Source: an uncultured Magnetospirillum sp.
GTDB lineage: Bacteria > Pseudomonadota > Alphaproteobacteria > Rhodospirillales > Magnetospirillaceae
Direction: 5' to 3'
Assembly: GCF_903853455.1 (NCBI RefSeq)
Contig: NZ_CAINTR010000064.1
Coordinates: 1 to 64,000 of the forward strand
Length of the DNA stretch: 64,000 nt
Shown here: piece by piece, positions 38,835-61,181 of the stretch
How the letters are laid out: each line of letters starts with the position of its first letter
Position numbering within the stretch: position 1 is the stretch's first letter
Made by a program: the position numbers and the translations under genes
Notes under the pieces: model-generated
Database searches by the model: none
Seen by the model: the letters and a program-made list of their open reading frames with translations, nothing else
What the model was told of the DNA's origin: nothing

Positions 38835-39236
38835 TTACCGCCCCAAGGCCTTGGCCAGCGCCTTGAACGGCAGCAGGACGCAGCCGTGACGGCTTTTATG
38901 CGGCCGCACCGCCAGGAAGGCCGCCAGGGCGGGCAAGGGCGGTTCGGCCCCCTGCTTGAGCATGGCGCCCACCCGGTCGGCCAGCGCCACCGCAGTCTCC
39001 GCCTCCAGCCCGACCGCCGCTTGCGCGACCACGGTGGCGGCGGCCTTGCACAGCAGGCAGCCCTTGGCGCCATGCCCCAGCGCCGCGACCCGGCCCTGGC
39101 TCAGCCGCAGATCCAGACTCACCGTGTCGCCGCACAGCGGATTGTCCAGGGTCGCGCTGGCATCGGGCGCCTCCAGCCGCTGGGAGGCCTCGGCGGCGAG
39201 ATCCTTGATCGCCTGCTGGTACAACTCCTCGCTCAT
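38835..39236 (-). CDS. IscU/SufU-like iron-sulfur scaffold protein
   Basis: A 133-residue scaffold with the three conserved cysteine segments: NPLCGDTVSLDL, GCLLCKAAATVV and HGCVLLPFKAL. These hold a nascent Fe-S cluster or accept persulfide from a cysteine desulfurase. It is the last gene of an operon with a SufS-type desulfurase, a Moco nucleotidyltransferase and two molybdenum-hydroxylase subunits. Its ATG overlaps the stop of a 25-codon repeat mini-ORF, whose GAGGGG supplies the ribosome site eight bases upstream. It may serve Fe-S assembly or persulfide transfer for Moco. Confidence 0.85.
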   Translation of the reverse strand: MSEELYQQAIKDLAAEASQRLEAPDASATLDNPLCGDTVSLDLRLSQGRVAALGHGAKGCLLCKAAATVVAQAAVGLEAETAVALADRVGAMLKQGAEPPLPALAAFLAVRPHKSRHGCVLLPFKALAKALGR

Positions 39237-39310
39237 TGTTCATGCCCCTCAAGCGCCGGGCGCCCACATCCGTGGGCTTGGCTCCCGCGCTCGGCTGACG
39301 CCTCACTCAT
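39233..39310 (-). repeat. Repeat mini-ORF linking desulfurase and scaffold genes
   Basis: A 25-codon frame beginning MSEASAERGSQ and ending GRPALEGHEQ. Its ATG overlaps the desulfurase stop (39307-39310) and its TGA overlaps the scaffold start (39233-39236), both as ATGA. It contains a hairpin GCCCAC/GTGGGC (39262-39277) and the GAGGGG ribosome site for the scaffold gene. It shares its first nine residues and its RPALEG tail with the tandem repeats at 53.6 kb, so it is a repeat insertion that preserves translational coupling. Whether the peptide is made is unknown. Confidence 0.75.
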
Positions 39311-40506
39311 CGCAACACCCGGATCGCGTGGGCCAGACCATCCAGCAGCGCCTGCACATCGGCGCGATTGGTGTAGGGCGCCAGACTGGCCCTGACACAG
39401 CCCTCCTCCAGCCCCAGTGCCACCATCAGCGGCCGGGCGCAGTGAGCGCCGCCGCGCACCGCCACGCCGCGCTCGCCCAGCAGATGCGACAGATCGTGGG
39501 GATGACAGCCCGCGACCACGAACGACACCACCGGCAGGCGCGCCTCCAGGTCCGGCGGCCCCACCACCCTGACACCGTCCAGGCCGGCGAGGCCGGCCAG
39601 CAGGCGGCGGGTCAGTTCCTTCTCGGCCGCATGGACCGAAGGCCAATCCAGACCGCACATCCATTCCAGCGCCACGCCCAGGCCCACCGCCTGGGCCACC
39701 GGCGGCGTTCCGGCTTCGAAGCGCTCCGGCGGATCGAGCGGTTCGGCGTCGGTGGGACCGACCACGCCGACCATGCCGCCGCCCCACAGCACCGGCGGCA
39801 GCTCCGCCAGCAGTTCGCGCCGTCCCCACAGCACCCCGATCCCGGTGGGGCCATAGGCCTTGTGGCCGGCGAAGGCGTAGAGATCGGCCCCCAGCGCGCG
39901 CGGATCAACCGGCCCGTGCGGCACCATCTGGGCTCCGTCCACCACCAGCTTGGCTCCCACGGCGTGGGCGGCCTCGGCCAGCCGGGGAATGTCGGTCACA
40001 GCGCCGGTGACGTTGGAGGCATGGGTCACCGCCACCACCCGGCAGCGCCCGTCGATCAGAGACAGGTCGTCCAGCCGCAAACGGCCGTCGCCGTCCACCG
40101 GCAGGCTGACCACCTCGAAGCCCTTGCGCTGGGACAGCATCAGCCAGGGCAAAAGGTTGGAATGGTGCTCGGCCGCCGACACCACCACGCGGTCGCCCGG
40201 TCCCAGCTTCTCTCCCAAGGCCAGGGCGGCGATGTTGAGCGCCAGGGTGCAGCCGCCGGTGAACACCACCTCGTCCGCCTCGGCCGACAGGAAGCGGGCG
40301 ACCCTTTGGCGGGCTCCGTCATAGGCGTCGTCGGCGCGGCGCGCCAATTCGTGCAGACCGCGATGGACATTGGCCCGGGCGCTCAGGTCGTGATGGGCCA
40401 CCGCTTCCACCACCGCGCTGGGCAATTGCGCCATGGCGGCGCTGTCCAGGTAGTGGAATCCGGCGCGGGCCAGCACCGGAAAGGCGTCGCGGATCGGGGC
40501 GGTCAT
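39307..40506 (-). CDS. SufS-type cysteine desulfurase
   Basis: A 399-residue PLP enzyme of aminotransferase class V. The PLP lysine is in FAGHKAYGPTGIG near 224, THASNVTGAVTDIP is present, and the sulfur-carrying cysteine is in RGGAHCARPLM near 360, on a short loop as in SufS. It draws sulfur from cysteine as persulfide. It overlaps the Moco nucleotidyltransferase gene by ATGA. In Rhodobacter a desulfurase (NifS4) sulfurates the cofactor of xanthine dehydrogenase; a similar role is inferred from the operon here. Confidence 0.9.
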   Translation of the reverse strand: MTAPIRDAFPVLARAGFHYLDSAAMAQLPSAVVEAVAHHDLSARANVHRGLHELARRADDAYDGARQRVARFLSAEADEVVFTGGCTLALNIAALALGEKLGPGDRVVVSAAEHHSNLLPWLMLSQRKGFEVVSLPVDGDGRLRLDDLSLIDGRCRVVAVTHASNVTGAVTDIPRLAEAAHAVGAKLVVDGAQMVPHGPVDPRALGADLYAFAGHKAYGPTGIGVLWGRRELLAELPPVLWGGGMVGVVGPTDAEPLDPPERFEAGTPPVAQAVGLGVALEWMCGLDWPSVHAAEKELTRRLLAGLAGLDGVRVVGPPDLEARLPVVSFVVAGCHPHDLSHLLGERGVAVRGGAHCARPLMVALGLEEGCVRASLAPYTNRADVQALLDGLAHAIRVLR

Positions 40507-46446: not shown

Positions 46447-46572
46447 AGCCCCTCAATCGCCGGGCGGGATGCGTCCCGCATCCCTTGGCTTTCGCCGCAC
46501 AAGCGGCGCCGGCCGTTGGCCGCAACTCCGGAGCACTGAACTCGTTCAGTGCTCCGTCGGTTGAGGGTCAAA
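46447..46572 (-). repeat. Four-hairpin dispersed repeat, copy A
   Basis: Minus-strand reading. HP1 stem 46530-46541 with 46544-46555; HP2 CGGCC/GGCCG 46510-46522; HP3 CGCCGC/GCGGCG 46493-46508; HP4 GGGATGCG/CGCATCCC 46466-46484. The connectors GGAGTTGCGG, AAAGCCAAG and CGCCCGGCGATTGAGGGG are shared with copies B and C. It sits between the divergent MFS and TetR genes and ends a few bases before the TetR start. Confidence 0.8.
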
Positions 46573-49783: not shown

Positions 49784-51022
49784 ATGTCCGGCAGAGATGA
49801 CAATAGCGCTGCGACACCGGTCTTGCGAGTGGTTCTGCCATTCGCGGCGGGCTACTTCCTGTCCTACCTCTATCGCACCGTCAACGCGGTGCTGGCCCCG
49901 GAAATCGGACGGACCATACCGCTGGACGCCGCCGATATCGGCCTGATGACCGGCATCTATTTCATCACCTTCGCCGCCGCCCAACTGCCGCTCGGCCTTC
50001 TGCTCGACCGTTTCGGGCCGCGGCGGGTCGAGGCCGTGATGTTGGTCTTCGCCGCCGCGGGTGCGCTGGCTTTTTCCCTGGCCGAATCCGTTCCGGCCCT
50101 GGTGGTGGGACGCGCCCTGGTGGGCTTCGGCGTGTCCGCCTGCCTGATGGCGGCGCTGAAGGCCAATGTCCTGTTCTTTCCCCCGAACCGGCTGCCCCTG
50201 ATGAACGGCGTCATCCTGGGAGCCGGCGGCCTGGGAGCGGTGGCGGCGACGGCGCCGGTCCAACTGGCGCTTCAGGTGATGGACTGGCGCGGCGTCTATG
50301 CCGGGGTCGCCGCCCTGACCCTGCTGTCGGGACTGGCGATCTGGCTGACCGTGCCCGAGCGCCCCGGTTCCGCCGGGACCGGCAGCCTGGGCGCCCAGTT
50401 GCGCGACGTGGCCGAGATCTTCCGCAATCCCACCTTCTGGCGCATCGCCCCCGCCAGCATGGCCTCGCTGGGCAGCTTCATGGCCATCCAAGGCCTGTGG
50501 GCCGGCCCCTGGCTGCGCGACGTCGCCGGCCTGTCGGTCGCCGAGACCGCCAGCGGCCTGTCGCTGATGGCCGCCGGCATGGCCCTGGGCTATCTGTCCA
50601 TCGGCGCCATGGCGGAAGGATTCGAGCGTCTCGGCATCCCCGCCGCCACGTTGGGGGCCATGGGCATGACCCTTCACGCCCTGGCCCTGGCCGCCATGGC
50701 GTTCGGCTGGATTGCCGCGCCGCTGACCCTGTCGGCGATCTACGGGTTTACCGGCGCCTCGAGTTCGATTAATTACGCTGTGCTGACGCGACGGTTTCCG
50801 GCGCGGCTGGCGGGACGGGTCAACACCAGTCTCAATCTGCTGATCTTTGTCGCCGCCTTCTCGCTGCAATGGGGGCTGGGCTGGGTGATCGGCCGTTGGG
50901 ACAAGGTGGACGGCCACTGGCCCGCCGTCGCCTGGGCCGTTTCGCTTGGCATTCCCTTGGTGGCGACGCTGGCCGGGTTGGCTTGGCTGGCGCCCAGTTG
51001 TCGGGCCGAAAAGACACCATGA
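49784..51022 (+). CDS. MFS transporter
   Basis: A 412-residue 12-helix transporter of the NarK/ACS-like group: FLSYLYRTVNAVLAPEIGRTIPL, LLLDRFGPRRVEAVML and a later YGFTGASSSINYAVL. ATG 49784 follows GGTGGGG. Overlaps the next gene (TonB-like) by ATGA, so the two are coupled. Substrate unknown. Confidence 0.87.
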   Translation: MSGRDDNSAATPVLRVVLPFAAGYFLSYLYRTVNAVLAPEIGRTIPLDAADIGLMTGIYFITFAAAQLPLGLLLDRFGPRRVEAVMLVFAAAGALAFSLAESVPALVVGRALVGFGVSACLMAALKANVLFFPPNRLPLMNGVILGAGGLGAVAATAPVQLALQVMDWRGVYAGVAALTLLSGLAIWLTVPERPGSAGTGSLGAQLRDVAEIFRNPTFWRIAPASMASLGSFMAIQGLWAGPWLRDVAGLSVAETASGLSLMAAGMALGYLSIGAMAEGFERLGIPAATLGAMGMTLHALALAAMAFGWIAAPLTLSAIYGFTGASSSINYAVLTRRFPARLAGRVNTSLNLLIFVAAFSLQWGLGWVIGRWDKVDGHWPAVAWAVSLGIPLVATLAGLAWLAPSCRAEKTP

Positions 51023-51732
51023 CCGCCGCTTCCCGGGAAAACCGGACCACGTTGAACTGGGGCCTTGCGCTGTCCCTGCTGCTGCATCTGGTGTTCACCA
51101 TTTTGTCGCAGTTCGACAGCCTGCCCGATGTCAACCTCCACCTCCCCGAGCAGGTGATGGAGGTCGAGGTGGTGCGGGAAAAGCCGCCACCGCCGAAAGC
51201 CATAGAGCAGTCTCCTCCTGCGCCGCCGCCGCAGCGGCCGGAACCGCCGCCACAGCAGCAGCCGGCCAAACCGGTCGCGCCCCCCCAGTTGCAGCACGCC
51301 CCCATCGCCGAGCAGTCCTCCGCCCCCAAGCGGCCGGCGGCGCAGGACCAGGGCATATCGTTCGAACGCCGGAACACGCCTCCGCCGAAGGTGGGAGAAC
51401 TCACCCAGAGCGCCCAGGACTTCATCCTCGCCCAGGTGCTGCGCATGTGGCGGTTCGACACCTCCATCCTCAAGGGAAGCGACCTCACCCTCAGCATGAC
51501 CATCCTGATCGAGCGCGACGGCACCCTGAGCGACACACTGAACAAGAACGCGCCCTGGAACCCCAGCGCGGTCATCCGTGGTTACGACCAGATGCCGGAC
51601 GGCACCATAAAGCGCTCGCTGGAAAGCATGATGCTGGCCCTGAGAATGGCCCAGCCGTTGCAACTCCCCCCCGACGACGGCAAGGGATGGCCGCGCCGCA
51701 TGATCATCCGCTTCCGCCCCGGCGATCTTTAA
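51019..51732 (+). CDS. TonB/TolA-like single-span protein
   Basis: A 237-residue protein: a short N-terminal cytoplasmic tail, one membrane helix (WGLALSLLLHLVFTILS, residues 14-30), a Pro/Gln-rich periplasmic rod (~55-105), then a C-terminal domain (~130-237) with VLRMWRFDTSILKGSDLTLSMTILIERDGTLSD, which resembles the TolA/TonB C-terminal fold. It probably spans the periplasm. No ExbB/ExbD or receptor is nearby. Coupling to an MFS transporter is unusual. Confidence 0.72.
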   Translation: MTAASRENRTTLNWGLALSLLLHLVFTILSQFDSLPDVNLHLPEQVMEVEVVREKPPPPKAIEQSPPAPPPQRPEPPPQQQPAKPVAPPQLQHAPIAEQSSAPKRPAAQDQGISFERRNTPPPKVGELTQSAQDFILAQVLRMWRFDTSILKGSDLTLSMTILIERDGTLSDTLNKNAPWNPSAVIRGYDQMPDGTIKRSLESMMLALRMAQPLQLPPDDGKGWPRRMIIRFRPGDL

Positions 51733-51737
51733 ATTGT

Positions 51738-51850
51738 CCCTCACGCGCCGGGCGGGATGCGTCCCGCATCCCTTGGCTTTCGCGCCATGAGGCGCGCCGG
51801 GCCTTGCCCGCAACTCCGATCGAATGAACGCCTTCATTCGTTCGTCGGGA
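51738..51850 (-). repeat. Four-hairpin dispersed repeat, copy B
   Basis: Minus-strand reading. HP1 CGAATGAA/TTCATTCG 51821-51840; HP2 CGGGC/GCCCG 51798-51810; HP3 CGCGCC/GGCGCG 51781-51796; HP4 51754-51772. Shared connectors match copies A and C. It lies between two plus-strand genes (TonB-like and argC), so it is antisense to any read-through transcript. Confidence 0.8.
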
Positions 51851-51926
51851 TGCCTCAGCCTTTGACCCCGTTGTCGCTGGCGGCCGGGGCTGCTATCGTC
51901 CGCGTCCCATCATGGAGAAGGTCGTC

Positions 51927-52967
51927 ATGAACGAGGTAAAGGTCGCGATCCTGGGCGCCAGCGGTTACACCGGGGCCGAGTTGGTGCGCCTGCTGGCGCT
52001 GCACCCCAACTTCCGCATCACGGCCATGACCGGCGACCGCAAGGCCGGCCAGCCCATGTCGGCGGTGTTTCCCCATCTGGCCACCCTGGCCCTGCCCGAT
52101 CTGGTCGCCATCGACCAGGTGGATTTCGCCGCCGTGGACGCGGTGTTCTGTTGCCTGCCCCATGGCACCACCCAGGAGGTGATCGCCGGCCTGCCCGCCC
52201 ATGTGCGCATCGTCGATCTGTCGGCCGATTTCCGGCTGTTCGACGTCGCCAGCTATGCCCAGTGGTACGGTCACGAACACCGGGCGCCGGACTTGCAGAA
52301 GGAGGCGGTCTACGGCCTGACCGAGATCGCGCGGGCCAAGATCGCCACGGCGCGGCTGGTGGCCAATCCCGGCTGCTATCCCACCTCGGTGCAGCTGCCG
52401 CTGATTCCGCTGCTGGAACGGGGCCTGATCACGGCCGAGGACATCGTCATCGACGCCAAGTCGGGCGTATCGGGGGCCGGCCGCGCCGCCAAGGAAGCCA
52501 ACCTGTTCACCGAGGTCACCGAGGGCATCCACCCTTACGGCATCGCCGGCCATCGCCACGCACCCGAGATCGAGCAGGGCCTGTCCGACGCTTTCGGCAA
52601 GCCGGTGCTGGTGACCTTCACCCCCCATCTGATCCCCATGAGCCGGGGCATGCTATCGACCATCTACGTCAAGCTGACCGGCGCCAACACCGCCGCCTCC
52701 CTGCGCGCCGCCCTGGCCGAGCGTTTTCATGGCGAGGCCTTCGTGCATGTGCTGCCCGAAGGGGTGGTGCCGGCGACCCGGCATGTGCGCGGTTCCAACT
52801 TCTGCCTGATCAACGTCTTCGACGACCGCGTCAAGGGCCGGGCCATCATCACCGCGGTGATCGACAATCTGGTCAAGGGCGCCTCGGGTCAGGCGTTGCA
52901 GAACATGAACCTGATGTTCGGATTCCCCGAAACGCTGGGGCTGCAACAGCAGCCCATGTTCCCGTGA
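51927..52967 (+). CDS. argC: N-acetyl-gamma-glutamyl-phosphate reductase
   Basis: A 346-residue arginine-biosynthesis enzyme: VAILGASGYTGAELVRLLALHP for NADPH, the active-site cysteine in ANPGCYPTS near 147, GVSGAGRAAKEA, and HRHAPEIEQ. It reduces N-acetylglutamyl phosphate to the semialdehyde. ATG 51927 has GGAGAAGG upstream; 51912 is an alternative. The gene lies 8 bp before the gamma-carbonic anhydrase gene. Confidence 0.95.
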   Translation: MNEVKVAILGASGYTGAELVRLLALHPNFRITAMTGDRKAGQPMSAVFPHLATLALPDLVAIDQVDFAAVDAVFCCLPHGTTQEVIAGLPAHVRIVDLSADFRLFDVASYAQWYGHEHRAPDLQKEAVYGLTEIARAKIATARLVANPGCYPTSVQLPLIPLLERGLITAEDIVIDAKSGVSGAGRAAKEANLFTEVTEGIHPYGIAGHRHAPEIEQGLSDAFGKPVLVTFTPHLIPMSRGMLSTIYVKLTGANTAASLRAALAERFHGEAFVHVLPEGVVPATRHVRGSNFCLINVFDDRVKGRAIITAVIDNLVKGASGQALQNMNLMFGFPETLGLQQQPMFP

Positions 52968-52974
52968 GGCATCT

Positions 52975-53496
52975 ATGACCACCGGACATATCATGGCTTA
53001 CAAGGGCGTTCTGCCCACCATCGCCGCCGACGCCTTCATCGCTCCCACCGCCACGGTGATCGGCGACGTGGTGATCGGCGACGGCACCAGCGTGTGGTTC
53101 AACTGCGTCATTCGCGGCGACGTCCACGAAATCCGCATCGGCAGCCACACCAACATCCAGGACGGCACCATCATTCACGTCACCGGCGGCAAGCTGGGGA
53201 CGTATATCGGCTCGGGCATCACCATCGGCCACGGCGCCATCCTGCACGCCTGCACATTGGAAGACGGCTGTTTCATCGGCATGGGCGCCATCGTCCTGGA
53301 CGGCGTCGTGGTGGAATCAGGGGGCATGGTGGCGGCCGGCGCGGTGGTGACGCCGGGCAAGCGGGTCAAGGCCGGCGAGCTGTGGGGCGGCAATCCCGCC
53401 AAGCTGCTGCGCGAGCTGTCCGAGCAGGATCGCGCCTTCTTCCCGGTCTCGGCGGCCAACTATGTCGCCCTGGGACAGACCTATCGCGCCGAGTAG
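52975..53496 (+). CDS. Gamma-carbonic anhydrase family protein
   Basis: A 173-residue left-handed beta-helix protein: SVWFNCVIRGDVHEIRIGSHTNIQDGTIIHV and TIGHGAILHACTLEDGCFIGMGAIV hold the histidine ligands of the family. Bacterial members are often inactive or act as metal-dependent hydratases. Start 52975, or 52993 (MAYKG). Likely co-transcribed with argC. Confidence 0.88.
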   Translation: MTTGHIMAYKGVLPTIAADAFIAPTATVIGDVVIGDGTSVWFNCVIRGDVHEIRIGSHTNIQDGTIIHVTGGKLGTYIGSGITIGHGAILHACTLEDGCFIGMGAIVLDGVVVESGGMVAAGAVVTPGKRVKAGELWGGNPAKLLRELSEQDRAFFPVSAANYVALGQTYRAE

Positions 53497-53548
53497 CTTG
53501 CCCCCCGGCCGTGTCGCTCCTATTCTTGCGCGCAGGAGTGGACGCGCC

Positions 53549-53787
53549 CGCCCGGCGCTTGGGGGGCTTCATCAATGAGCGAGGCGGTAGCCGAGCGCGG
53601 CGCCATTGCGGCGCCCGGAGCGCAGCGGAGGAGCCAAGGGGCCGTGAGGCCCCGCCCGGCGCTTGAGGGGCTTGAACAATGAGCGAGGCGTCAGCCGAGC
53701 GCGGCGCCATTGCGGCGCCCGGAGCGCAGCGGAGGAGCCAAGGGGCCGTGAGGCCCCGCCCGGCGCTTGAGGGGCTTGAACAATGAG
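53549..53787 (+). repeat. 104-bp tandem repeat of overlapping mini-ORFs
   Basis: Two full units (53549-53652, 53653-53756) and a third partial unit (53757-53787), period exactly 104 bp. Each full unit encodes a 35-codon frame, at 53575-53682 and 53679-53786. These start MSEAVAERGAIAAPGAQRRS and MSEASAERGAIAAPGAQRRS and both end RPRPALEGLEQ. Each TGA overlaps the next ATG, the last being the ATG of the downstream gene at 53783. GAGGGG lies eight bases before the ATGs at 53679 and 53783. Each unit contains hairpins GGCGCC/GGCGCC and GGGGCC/GGCCCC. The units differ at only a few bases, so the duplication is recent. Confidence 0.88.
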
Positions 53788-55432
53788 CCGGAAGCGGCCC
53801 AGGGACGGTCTGCTGTCCAGACTGGCGCGGCCGTTCTCGGCTCTGGGCCGGCTGGTAGGCGGTCAGGAGGAGTCCTCCGACATCGCCATCCCCACGGATG
53901 CCGGCGATACCTCCGACAACGTGGTCGAGGATTCCTTCACCCTCGCCCTTGAGACACTGCTGATCGAGGACGAAGGCAAGTTCCAGACCAAGCTTCAGGT
54001 CATTTCCCTGGTGGAATTCCGGGAAGCGGTCGGCGACAAATGGTACCGCCTGTCCGAAAAGGTGATGATGATCGCCGAAGGCGTCATCAACCTGCATATT
54101 GGCGCTGGCAATGTGTTCGGCCGCCGGGGGCAGGACTTCTTCGTCTTGCTGTTTCGTAACGTCCCCACCGCCGAAGGGCGTCGCCGCGCCGTTCAGATCG
54201 CCCAGGAGCTGGGCACGCGGCTGGTGGGAGCCCAGTTCATCGGCCATGAGCGGCCGCTGGCGCTGGCCACGGAAATCGCGCTGGGCGACGCCATCGGCCC
54301 CGATGGCGCCCTTGACCTCGCCGCCATTCACGACGCCGTCGGCGAGATGCGCGCCCTCATCGCCCCGGCCCCACCCGCCCGCACCGGCTACCGTCCCCAT
54401 CTGACCAAGCTCGCGGCCGAGGAAGACCTGCCGATCCACCACTCCTCCCTGCCGCCGCCCTTGCCCGAACAGGGGGATCTGCGCGCCCATCTGCGGCCCA
54501 GCAAGCTGTCGGCCAAGGAGTTCATCCCCCGCCGCTCCATGCTGCCCAGCCAGGGACCGGCCAAGACCGAAAGCGCCCCCCGGCAGGTGGCTGCCCCGAC
54601 CTGGAAAGCGGTGGCCATGGACGACCGCAACAAACCGGCCGACGACGGTGTCGGCGGGGCTCCGCCCATGCCGGGCGACGCCAAGCTGTCGCTGGTGTGG
54701 CGGCCGACCTGGATGGCGGCGGGCGAGATCATCGGCGCCTACAAGGCTCAGCTCAACCGGGTGGACACGCCGGGCCAGTTTCCCTACGAAGGGTGCCATG
54801 CCTATCCCGGCGACGGCGGCGAAACCGCGCTGACCCTAGACCGCTTCGTGATCGGCGCCACCGTGCGTGAGATGCGCACGGCCGAGACCGCCGCCAGCCG
54901 CTCCGTCATCGTGCTGCCGCTGCACTGGGCTTCGGCCAGTTCGCCGCAACGGCTGTCGCTGCTGGCGCCGCTGGGCGACCTGTCCGAGGATGTGCGTGGC
55001 AATCGCCTGATCATCGATCTGTTCGGAATCCCCGACGGAGCCGCCGACGGCCGGTTGGCCACCACCGTCCAGGCGTTGCGGCCGCTGTGCAAGGAAGTGA
55101 CGCTGCGGGTGCGTCTGGCCTATCCGCGCGCGCCTCGCGCCGCCGATTGCGGCGTCACCACCATCGGCATCGATCTCGCCGAACTGCCCCCCGGCGAACG
55201 GAGCGACGACGATACCTTGCTGGATTCCTTGGCTCGGCTGCATCAGAATGCGGATGCCGTCCGGCTGGGAGTCTATGCCTGGGGCATTCGCCGCCGCGCC
55301 GTGGTGGTCGGCACCGTGTTGGGAGGCTTCGCCATGATCGACGGCCCCGGCCTGATGAAGGATCTGGCCCGTCCGGCCAAGGTCCTGCCGGCACCGCGGT
55401 CACGCCTTGCCGGAGACGCCAAGAAACCATGA
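53783..55432 (+). CDS. Degenerate GGDEF/EAL-like signalling protein
   Basis: A 549-residue cytoplasmic protein. Residues ~45-150 look like a decayed GGDEF domain: GRRGQDFFVLLFRNVPTAEGRRRAVQIAQ stands where an active cyclase has GGDEF. After a Pro-rich linker (~200-295) the C-terminal ~250 residues (SLVWRPTWMAAGEIIGAYKAQLN, GNRLIIDLFGIPDG, VTTIGIDLAEL, LGGFAMIDGPGLM) resemble a decayed EAL domain without the EAL motif or metal ligands. It may bind c-di-GMP or a partner but should be catalytically dead. Its start follows the mini-ORF repeats, and it overlaps the AsmA gene by ATGA. Confidence 0.65.
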   Translation: MSRKRPRDGLLSRLARPFSALGRLVGGQEESSDIAIPTDAGDTSDNVVEDSFTLALETLLIEDEGKFQTKLQVISLVEFREAVGDKWYRLSEKVMMIAEGVINLHIGAGNVFGRRGQDFFVLLFRNVPTAEGRRRAVQIAQELGTRLVGAQFIGHERPLALATEIALGDAIGPDGALDLAAIHDAVGEMRALIAPAPPARTGYRPHLTKLAAEEDLPIHHSSLPPPLPEQGDLRAHLRPSKLSAKEFIPRRSMLPSQGPAKTESAPRQVAAPTWKAVAMDDRNKPADDGVGGAPPMPGDAKLSLVWRPTWMAAGEIIGAYKAQLNRVDTPGQFPYEGCHAYPGDGGETALTLDRFVIGATVREMRTAETAASRSVIVLPLHWASASSPQRLSLLAPLGDLSEDVRGNRLIIDLFGIPDGAADGRLATTVQALRPLCKEVTLRVRLAYPRAPRAADCGVTTIGIDLAELPPGERSDDDTLLDSLARLHQNADAVRLGVYAWGIRRRAVVVGTVLGGFAMIDGPGLMKDLARPAKVLPAPRSRLAGDAKKP

Positions 55433-57669
55433 CCGCACTCCGCCCCCTTCCCACTTCGACCCCGGCCATCGCCGCCGTCGCATTCGTCGCCGCCGTGATC
55501 GGCCTCACCCTGGTGGTGCCGGGGCTGATGGATTGGAACCGGCTGCGGCCCCGGATCGAGGCGGCAACCTCCAGGGCCATGGGCCGCCCGGTGACGGTTT
55601 CAGGCCCCATTTCCGGGCGGGTGTTTCCCAACCCCGTCCTCATCGTGGGCGGTCTGACCATGGGCGACGCCTCCGCCGAAAGCCTGCTGGTGGGGCTGCG
55701 GCTGCTGCCGCTGCTGGTGGGGCGGAACGAAATCGACCACCTGACCCTGAGCGGCGGCAAGCTCGGCCCGGTGGAGGGGATCGAAGCCCGCTTCGATCCC
55801 TCCGGCGAGACCTCCGCCACCGGACGGCTGACCCTGCCCAATGGCACCGCCGCCACCCTGGCCTTCGAAGGCTTCACCGACTTCAGGAATGCGTCCGGCA
55901 AGTTGCGCCTGTCCGCCGCGCAACTGACGGCGGAAAGCTCGGTGTCGCTGTCACCGGACGAAGCCAACCTGCCGGACGTGATAGTCACGCTCGGGCAATC
56001 CCGTGCCACGGGCAGCATCGTCGCCAGCTTGAAGGCCTCGCCCATCCAGGTCGACGCCACGGTGAAGGCCGGCGACCTTGATCTGGACACGCTGGCGCCC
56101 CCTTCGCCCGTGGCCTCCCAACCCACGCCGCCCGAACCGGTACCGCCGGTTCCCGCGTCGCCGGAGCCGACGCAGGCCCAAGCGCCGGCCCAGCCTGCTT
56201 CCGGCGGATTCGCCCTGCCGCGCAACGTCACCGCCAACCTCGCCTTCACCGCCGGGTCCCTGCATTGGCGCGGCATCACCCTCGGCCGGCTCGAGGTCAA
56301 CGCCTTGCTGGACAACGGCGTCCTCAGCCTCGGCCATGCCTCGTCGGACGTTCAAGGTGTCGGCCTCGCCGAACTGACCGGCACCCTGGCCGCCAAGGGC
56401 GGGCAGCCGAGCTTCGATGGCAACTTGCGCGCCACCACCAGCCGCGCGGGCTTGAGCAGCCGGGTGACCCTGCATGGGTCCCAGCTTCTGCTGTCGGCCT
56501 TGACCCTGGCCATGGACGACATCCATGCCACCGGCGAGGCCACCATCACCCTGGACAATCCGGTGGCGGTCAAGGCCCGCATGTCCGCCCTCGGGCTGGA
56601 TGCCGGCTTCGACGGCCGCATGGACGGAGCCCGCGCCAGCGGCGCCGCCTCCCTGCATGCCGCCAGCTTCGCCCAGGCGGCACGGCTGTTTTCCGGCTCC
56701 TACCGCCCCCGTGGCGGTGGCCCCCTGGCCGTCACCGCCCATCTGAATGCCGAGGGCGACACCGTCGCCTTCGATCAGTTGGAAGCGCGGCTGGGCGAGG
56801 CCGTGCTGAACGGCCAGGGCAAGCTGGTCTGGGGCATCAGCCCCAGCCTCGCCGCCGACCTGAGCAGTCCCGGCCTCGCCCTCGCCCCGTTCCTGCCGGC
56901 CGAGGCCAAGCCTTTCGCCCTGAACGCCTGGAGGCTGGACAAGGCCAGCGCCCATCTCGCCCTCGCCGACGGCACGGCGACGCTGGAGCGCCTGTCCGGG
57001 CGACTGCTGGGCGGCGACCTGAGCGGAACCGCCAAGGCCACCGCCGCCGGCATGGCCGGAACCTTCGCCATCCGGGGGGCCGATATCGGCGGCCTGGGGC
57101 TGGGCGCCGGCGGCATCAAGGCCACCAAGGGCCGCCTGGATGGACAGGCGAAACTGTCCATGTCGCCCCAGCAGCTGACCACCCTGACCGGTGACGGACG
57201 GTTCGAGGTCAAGGATGGCGTGGTCGAAGGCTTCGATCTGGCGGCCATGGACGCCCAGATGCATCGGCTGGAAAATCTCGGCAGCATGCTGGGACTGGTC
57301 CAGACCGCTCTGTCGGGCGGCAGTTCGCGGTTCTCGTCGCTGTCGGCCAGCTTCCGCGCCGAGCGGGGCGTGGTGACCAGCCGCGACGTCAAACTGGACG
57401 CCGAGGGCGGCGGCGCCACCGGAACCGCAATCATCGACCTACCCAAGGACAGCATCGACGCCCGCTTCGCCTTCAAACTGGCCACCCCCGACGCGCCGCC
57501 GCTGGGGCTGCGCCTGGAGGGCAAGCTGGGAGCGCCCAACAAGATCATCGACGTCAACGCCATGCAGCGCTATCTGGTCGAGCACGGCCTTGGCAAGGCG
57601 CTGAAGGGCAAGAACGGCGGCCTGATCGAGACCCTGCTGGGCGTCAAGCCGCGCGAGAAGAAGCAGTAG
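55429..57669 (+). CDS. AsmA-family envelope protein
   Basis: A 746-residue protein with one N-terminal membrane helix (IAAVAFVAAVIGLTLVVPGL) followed by MDWNRLRPRIEAATSRAMGRPVTVSG, the AsmA start, and a long beta-rich periplasmic region ending in the AsmA C-terminal block (LTTLTGDGRFEVKDGVVEGFDLAAMDA, LRLEGKLGAPNKIIDVNAMQRYLVE). AsmA proteins bridge the periplasm and help move phospholipids or assemble the outer membrane. A Pro-rich linker interrupts near 225-260. Coupled to the degenerate GGDEF/EAL-like gene. Confidence 0.88.
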   Translation: MTALRPLPTSTPAIAAVAFVAAVIGLTLVVPGLMDWNRLRPRIEAATSRAMGRPVTVSGPISGRVFPNPVLIVGGLTMGDASAESLLVGLRLLPLLVGRNEIDHLTLSGGKLGPVEGIEARFDPSGETSATGRLTLPNGTAATLAFEGFTDFRNASGKLRLSAAQLTAESSVSLSPDEANLPDVIVTLGQSRATGSIVASLKASPIQVDATVKAGDLDLDTLAPPSPVASQPTPPEPVPPVPASPEPTQAQAPAQPASGGFALPRNVTANLAFTAGSLHWRGITLGRLEVNALLDNGVLSLGHASSDVQGVGLAELTGTLAAKGGQPSFDGNLRATTSRAGLSSRVTLHGSQLLLSALTLAMDDIHATGEATITLDNPVAVKARMSALGLDAGFDGRMDGARASGAASLHAASFAQAARLFSGSYRPRGGGPLAVTAHLNAEGDTVAFDQLEARLGEAVLNGQGKLVWGISPSLAADLSSPGLALAPFLPAEAKPFALNAWRLDKASAHLALADGTATLERLSGRLLGGDLSGTAKATAAGMAGTFAIRGADIGGLGLGAGGIKATKGRLDGQAKLSMSPQQLTTLTGDGRFEVKDGVVEGFDLAAMDAQMHRLENLGSMLGLVQTALSGGSSRFSSLSASFRAERGVVTSRDVKLDAEGGGATGTAIIDLPKDSIDARFAFKLATPDAPPLGLRLEGKLGAPNKIIDVNAMQRYLVEHGLGKALKGKNGGLIETLLGVKPREKKQ

Positions 57670-61006: not shown

Positions 61007-61022
61007 GGCGTTTCTCCTTTAG

Positions 61023-61181
61023 TCCCTCAAGCGCCGGGCGGGATGCGTCCCGCATCCCTTGGCTTTCGCGCCATGAGGCGCGCCGGGCACCCGCGCGCAG
61101 GCGCGAATCAAATATATCTGCCGGCGAAGCCGGCGGGCCCGCAACTCCGATCGAATGAAACCCTCATTCGATCGTCGGTCC
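61023..61181 (-). repeat. Four-hairpin dispersed repeat, copy C with enlarged HP2
   Basis: Minus-strand reading. HP1 CGATCGAATGA/TCATTCGATCG 61148-61174; HP2 CGGGC/GCCCG arms at 61084-61088 and 61137-61141, enclosing a 48-bp AT-rich-centred insert with its own GCCGGC hairpin; HP3 61067-61082; HP4 61040-61058. It lies in the same direction as both flanking minus-strand genes, from the isochorismatase stop to 17 bases before the hydrolase start. Confidence 0.8.

Follow-up and report, generated by a model that had tools for sequence, protein, structure and literature searches.

A short dispersed repeat of Magnetospirillum and its relatives that lies at stop/start overlaps of genes and may keep them translated

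The window, by which we mean the whole 64,000-nt stretch analysed (positions 1 to 64,000 of contig NZ_CAINTR010000064.1 from an uncultured Magnetospirillum sp.), contains a tandem array at 53547-53788, for which TRF reports a 104-bp period, 2.3 copies and a 96% match. The array consists of two 104-bp units and a 28-nt partial unit, placed directly before the gene that starts at 53783. The features of the locus, together with a second element of the same kind elsewhere in the window, are as follows.

52975-53496, plus strand: upstream gene, encoding a hexapeptide-repeat (gamma-carbonic-anhydrase-like) protein (Pfam PF00132)
53547-53574, plus strand: partial (third) unit, a right-end module, in which GGGGGG (53561-53566) precedes the first ATG (repeat search, TRF)
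53575-53682, plus strand: mini-ORF of unit 1, 35 codons and a TGA overlapping the ATG at 53679 (model R1 match 53577-53671, 93 bits)
53599-53615, no strand assigned: palindrome A of unit 1, covarying (GGCGCC-ATTGC-GGCGCC), helix 1; unit 2 copy at 53703-53719
53638-53653, no strand assigned: palindrome B of unit 1, covarying (GGGGCC-GTGA-GGCCCC), helix 2; unit 2 copy at 53742-53757
53665-53670, plus strand: GAGGGG lying 14 nt ahead of the ATG at 53679, for which it may be the ribosome site (sequence, spacing statistics)
53679-53786, plus strand: mini-ORF of unit 2, 35 codons and a TGA overlapping the ATG at 53783 (model R1 match 53681-53775, 94 bits)
53769-53774, plus strand: GAGGGG lying 14 nt ahead of the ATG at 53783, for which it may be the ribosome site (sequence, spacing statistics)
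53783-55432, plus strand: downstream gene, 549 aa, without a Pfam family, conserved in the genus
39233-39329, minus strand: second relay-type element in the window, a short unit between two genes with a clean ATGA relay; the uninserted ortholog has ATGA in 5/5 relatives

An earlier note on this DNA had described two 104-bp units and a partial third before the gene at 53783, and TRF and translation bear this out. Translation likewise agrees with its 35-codon frames, in which the TGA of each full unit overlaps the next ATG as ATGA: unit 1 reads MSEAVAERGAIAAPGAQRRSQGAVRPRPALEGLEQ and then stops, unit 2 reads MSEASAERGAIAAPGAQRRSQGAVRPRPALEGLEQ and then stops, and the TGA of unit 2 overlaps the real start codon, that of the 549-aa gene. 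The note's arithmetic also holds, the period of 104 being 36 codons (108 nt) minus the 4-base overlap. The upstream gene ends at a TAG (53494-53496), 78 nt ahead of the ATG of the first mini-ORF, and the first ATGA of the array is therefore not joined to it. The window locus is the exception within the family described below, in that its array stands at a start codon instead of a stop/start overlap; in relatives the gap at this site is 11-150 nt, and a DTGA overlap is found in none. The two full units are nearly identical and the third is partial, which points to recent duplication. For this reason, and because arrays of one to six units occur at other loci, the array might be a putative copy-number switch that tunes translation of the 549-aa protein, but we think this improbable, since no relative carries an array at the window locus (it is absent from 20/20 other genomes in which the gene pair could be aligned).

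The array matches 42 places in its own genome by BLAST, with 18 hits above 80 bits by the model, and it has matches in 24/40 relatives. This recurrence at tens of loci in its own genome and in relatives argues that the architecture of the array is not due to chance. A DNA pattern taken from the core names as hosts Paramagnetospirillum caucaseum, Paramagnetospirillum marisnigri, Paramagnetospirillum kuznetsovii, Magnetospirillum sp. SS-4 and Magnetospirillum moscoviense, with further records of the same core pattern in Phaeospirillum, Telmatospirillum and Terasakiella. A catalogue of copies was compiled from the BLAST hits, the model hits and the fetched stretches. Among 100 fetched loci from 14 genomes there were 161 units in 110 arrays (80 single, 30 with 2-6 units), numbers which are biased toward intact junctions and units because the loci were gathered by similarity to an ATGA-containing array, and which are not fully independent because the copies are related by descent. 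Plasmid and phage collections contained no match to the element, and carriage on plasmids or phages was rejected accordingly. Neither did Rfam give a match up to E = 1 over 51000-56000, so that a known structured RNA family was also rejected. A literature search found no paper on such repeats in Magnetospirillum, which is weak evidence, as most subscription journals lay outside the search. As part of the best explanation taken as a whole, we consider it very probable that the window array arose by tandem duplication of one copy of a dispersed, non-autonomous element, which is short at about 98-110 nt.

The element lies in the direction of its neighbouring genes. With genes called by a codon-usage model and not from annotation, both flanking genes ran in the direction of the element in 88/110 arrays, or 88/103 when only arrays with both flanks evaluable are counted, and antisense flanks were rare. 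In 33/88 arrays the upstream gene stopped precisely at the TGA within the first ATGA of the element. A strict chain of -1 overlaps, from upstream stop through the mini-ORF or mini-ORFs to the downstream start, was present in 64/88 evaluable arrays; with looser spacing a relay was found in 73/88, and 15/88 had none even then. When one, two or three random bases were inserted in the element, the strict relay rate became 18%, 9% and 72%, respectively; the relay thus depends on frame. In a few cases (L136, L141, L156 and others) the copy is continuous in frame with the gene that follows, and a few intergenic copies exist (e.g. L076, in minus orientation, and L081). Insertion without regard to frame or start codon, which the earlier note had named as the outcome that would speak against its reading, is not what related genomes display; the unit is placed in them strictly by frame and start codon.

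The same dependence on frame is evident in the lengths of the units. Those with DTGA at both ends (65 units) measure 98, 101, 104, 107, 125 or 140 nt, with three odd lengths (97, 99 and 103), of which 97 (L125) reflects a mis-picked ATGA. In 61/65 of these units (62 with L125 read correctly) the mini-ORF closes precisely at the 3' DTGA, and the other two frames contain stops in 59/59 and 51/59 distinct units. Three segments within the unit vary in length by non-multiples of three, yet the total is 2 mod 3 in 53/54 distinct units, against a mean of 24/54 and a maximum of 38 in 20,000 shufflings of the segment lengths. Tandem copies keep the relay rule by the same means: at ATGAGC-type overlap junctions the period is 2 mod 3 (101, 104, 107, 119, 134, 149), with one diverged unit (L096) as the exception. 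Junctions without such an overlap mostly have a period of 0 mod 3 (90, 93, 99, 102, 105, 111, 132, 135), usually with the frame open across the junction. Arrays therefore keep either relay or read-through, the period rule being broken by four junction sets (L111, L113, L100, L096).

Two side observations concern altered units. Nested insertions are present in L107, L070, L138 and L115, with totals (140, 149, 125 and 134 nt, respectively) still at 2 mod 3. At the rdgB junction of one relative (L195, genome G011) lies a 59-nt decayed relic, ATGATCGAGGCAAAGCC...CCCAAGCAATGA, which has an exact mini-ORF and still closes as ATG...CAATGA; decay of this copy appears to respect the frame.

Sites without the element were identified in relatives for 13 sites of the own genome, the same gene pair being located in six relatives with a concatenated query that served as locator only. 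At 12/13 sites the uninserted relatives have DTGA, in 55/56 cases (ATGA in 50, GTGA in 5), compared with 90/286 (31%) of element-free co-directional gene pairs. Eight further cases at the tested sites contained other inserts or long gaps. At ruvA-ruvB, aroK-aroB and one other junction (L178, L171, L202, L210), relatives carry a different structured insert at the same DTGA sites, and these are recurrent hot spots for more than one type of element. An alternative to target choice is random insertion followed by selection that retains only those copies which preserve coupling. Strong frame selection is indeed visible in the indels and periods, and the few intergenic copies would fit. However, copies at neutral intergenic or convergent sites should then survive too, yet ATGA-ended copies are nearly absent there, and 12/12 non-window sites are DTGA against the background of 31%. 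We therefore regard the absence of any target choice as unlikely, while DTGA targeting and selection for coupling are not exclusive causes. The element has ATGA on both sides, and in 5/5 units in which the left junction is GTGA or TTGA the right one is ATGA; this makes a plain target duplication doubtful, and the element itself may contribute the right ATGA. In the window, the repeat search gave no inverted repeats over 53300-54100.

It was of interest whether the mini-ORF product matters in its own right. Units keep the frame strictly, and MSEAKPKRG...RPALEG recurs in many of them, as would be expected of a functional basic microprotein conserved for its own sake. Against this, there are units that read the same DNA in a different frame (..SAGALSAPERSGGAK..ARRLRDK) and close nonetheless. 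The same core is translated as ..ERGRIERPGAQRRSQ.. or ..SAGALSAPERSGGAK.. in different units without loss of closure, and at the middle box of the element all three frames occur. In frame, the synonymous fraction does not exceed that of shifted frames, and the internal stem sequence changes freely. Because frame usage varies among units, a microprotein function was rejected and is, in our estimation, extremely improbable. The pattern points to maintenance of translation itself, and the peptide is not conserved.

The two palindromes covary: 90% of cells are paired, 74 cells have both sides changed, and the covariation score is 0.442, compared with 0.101 when shuffled and at most 0.15 when slid. 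Tandem G-A mismatches replace the two central pairs in eight units in helix 1 and in four units in helix 2 (alignment A1, helices 24-29/35-40 and 67-73/78-84). Only two G-U cells occur in the palindromes, which suggests that the constraint acts on DNA and not on RNA. Single-strand folding of whole units did not go beyond composition (z between -1 and 0.1), so that the structure is visible only through covariation. The idea that structure hides the SD sequence until translation of the mini-ORF opens it was unsupported, the predicted accessibility of GAGGG being 0.48 in untranslated and 0.55 in cleared RNA.

A family of sister repeats provides an internal control. In the own genome, about 120 weaker relatives were detected with a covariance model, which also gave hits in 52/150 genomes of the order and 12/190 of the class sample; these weaker relatives share the right module and have other left halves. 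A strict relay was present in 0/42 distant sister arrays and in 2/20 weak own-genome arrays, and orientation was mixed in the distant arrays, although gene calls are less reliable in distant genomes, since Magnetospirillum-type genes served to train the codon model. In the window itself, the segments 46448-46547, 51736-51821 and 61022-61113 (all minus strand) score only 26-36 bits; they are related to the element more weakly, through the right module, and are probably plain intergenic repeats of the sister family. The GAGGG box is invariant in sister repeats outside any relay. The earlier note had taken GAGGGG for the ribosome site of the following ATG, and this part stands to the extent that the box lies 14 nt before the ATG in both full units; the partial unit has GGGGGG in its place. 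Given its retention in relay-less sister repeats, the box was probably borrowed as a ribosome site, a role that would be secondary.

Such sister repeats, which share the right module and are plain intergenic sequences without orientation bias, would be consistent, as would the covarying palindromes, with an ordinary structured intergenic repeat of the REP/BIME or ERIC class that has no translational role and whose open frames are a by-product of GC-richness. Such a repeat does not account for the destruction of the relay by frame shifts, for two of the three frames being full of stops, for the compensating indels that hold the total at 2 mod 3, or for uninserted sites that are DTGA, and we judge it very improbable. 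We conclude that a subfamily, placed at DTGA junctions and kept translated, probably arose from a structured intergenic repeat.

Our working hypothesis, which we hold to be very likely on the sequence evidence, is of a non-autonomous element that acts in a MIRU-like way, inserting at DTGA junctions and remaining translated. The positions, frame rule, uninserted sites and covarying palindromes are observed: copies lie in gene orientation at a DTGA stop/start overlap or, as in the window, at an ATGA start codon. After insertion ATGA is present at both ends, the left ATGA ending the upstream gene and opening a mini-ORF across the element, and the right ATGA ending this mini-ORF as the start of the next gene, with the GAGGG box 11-17 nt upstream as putative ribosome site. 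At junctions without ATGA, where the period is usually 0 mod 3, one long frame runs through. Since the mini-ORF would hand over at both ATGA ends, ribosomes would presumably take this relay path and translation of the operon would be uninterrupted, with less loss of downstream translation and less Rho-dependent polarity; the benefit would lie in the avoided polarity or decoupling, and spread would be by transposition into DTGA. Polarity has been explained by the action of Rho on untranslated RNA (PMC12548453). The earlier note had proposed a repeat that spreads by copying translational coupling: copying does preserve coupling, but as the element mostly enters junctions that are already coupled, it preserves coupling and does not spread it.

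MIRUs form tandem arrays, as does the element described here. To our knowledge, mycobacterial MIRUs are the only elements reported to insert in this way, at coupled start codons. A 2025 review (PMC12548453), citing Supply et al. (1997), presents MIRUs as mobile sequences that enter start codons and bring an ORF whose coupling at -4 nt likely limits the effect on the gene; the element is similar in being a short dispersed repeat, apparently mobile, found at start codons and carrying an ORF with the same -4 nt coupling. The likeness is one of mode of action: tens of dispersed copies, start-codon or DTGA sites, gene orientation (88/103) and relay (61/65 units; 64/88 arrays). The hosts differ, being alphaproteobacterial (Magnetospirillum/Paramagnetospirillum and relatives) and not mycobacterial, and the element also differs in its two strongly covarying palindromes, its 0 mod 3 read-through arrays and its relay-less sister family. 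By this analogy the element would work like a MIRU, and we do not file it as one.

Other repeat classes share some of its properties. Like REP/REPIN sequences with RAYT (Y1_Tnp), the element is a small palindromic dispersed chromosomal repeat with stems kept by compensatory change. In contrast to them, its orientation and frame are fixed by flanking genes, and PF01797 (Y1_Tnp) has no match in the own genome (G000) or in the high-copy genomes G001 and G002, so that a RAYT/Y1 transposase was rejected as mover. ERIC/MITE-type elements are non-autonomous, about 100 bp long, structured and found inside operons. The present element shares these features, but no long terminal inverted repeats were found for it in the stretch searched, 53300-54100, and it is bounded by DTGA start/stop junctions. 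Rickettsia palindromic elements (RPE) are palindromic and compatible with host-gene translation, giving in-frame peptides inside genes. The element, too, is palindromic and compatible with translation; unlike RPE, it mostly forms its own ORF between genes, though a few copies are fused in frame downstream.

It is tempting to speculate further that this is a class of mobile repeat that arose independently of MIRUs, whose only selected product would be uninterrupted translation, whatever the frame and with the peptide irrelevant, in which the palindromes might guide insertion beside DTGA and translation would be kept by either of two solutions, ATGA relay or in-frame read-through; we advance this tentatively, as a possibility with the balance somewhat against it. 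Where these genomes have annotated proteins of 33-37 aa, the ORFs concerned may be mere translation bridges. The same logic as in mycobacteria is seen here in another phylum. Numerous uninserted sites, the compensating indels and a control family within the same genomes make it directly testable whether an element can live in operons because it keeps ribosomes moving. On this reading, invasion of an operon could leave the following gene translated.
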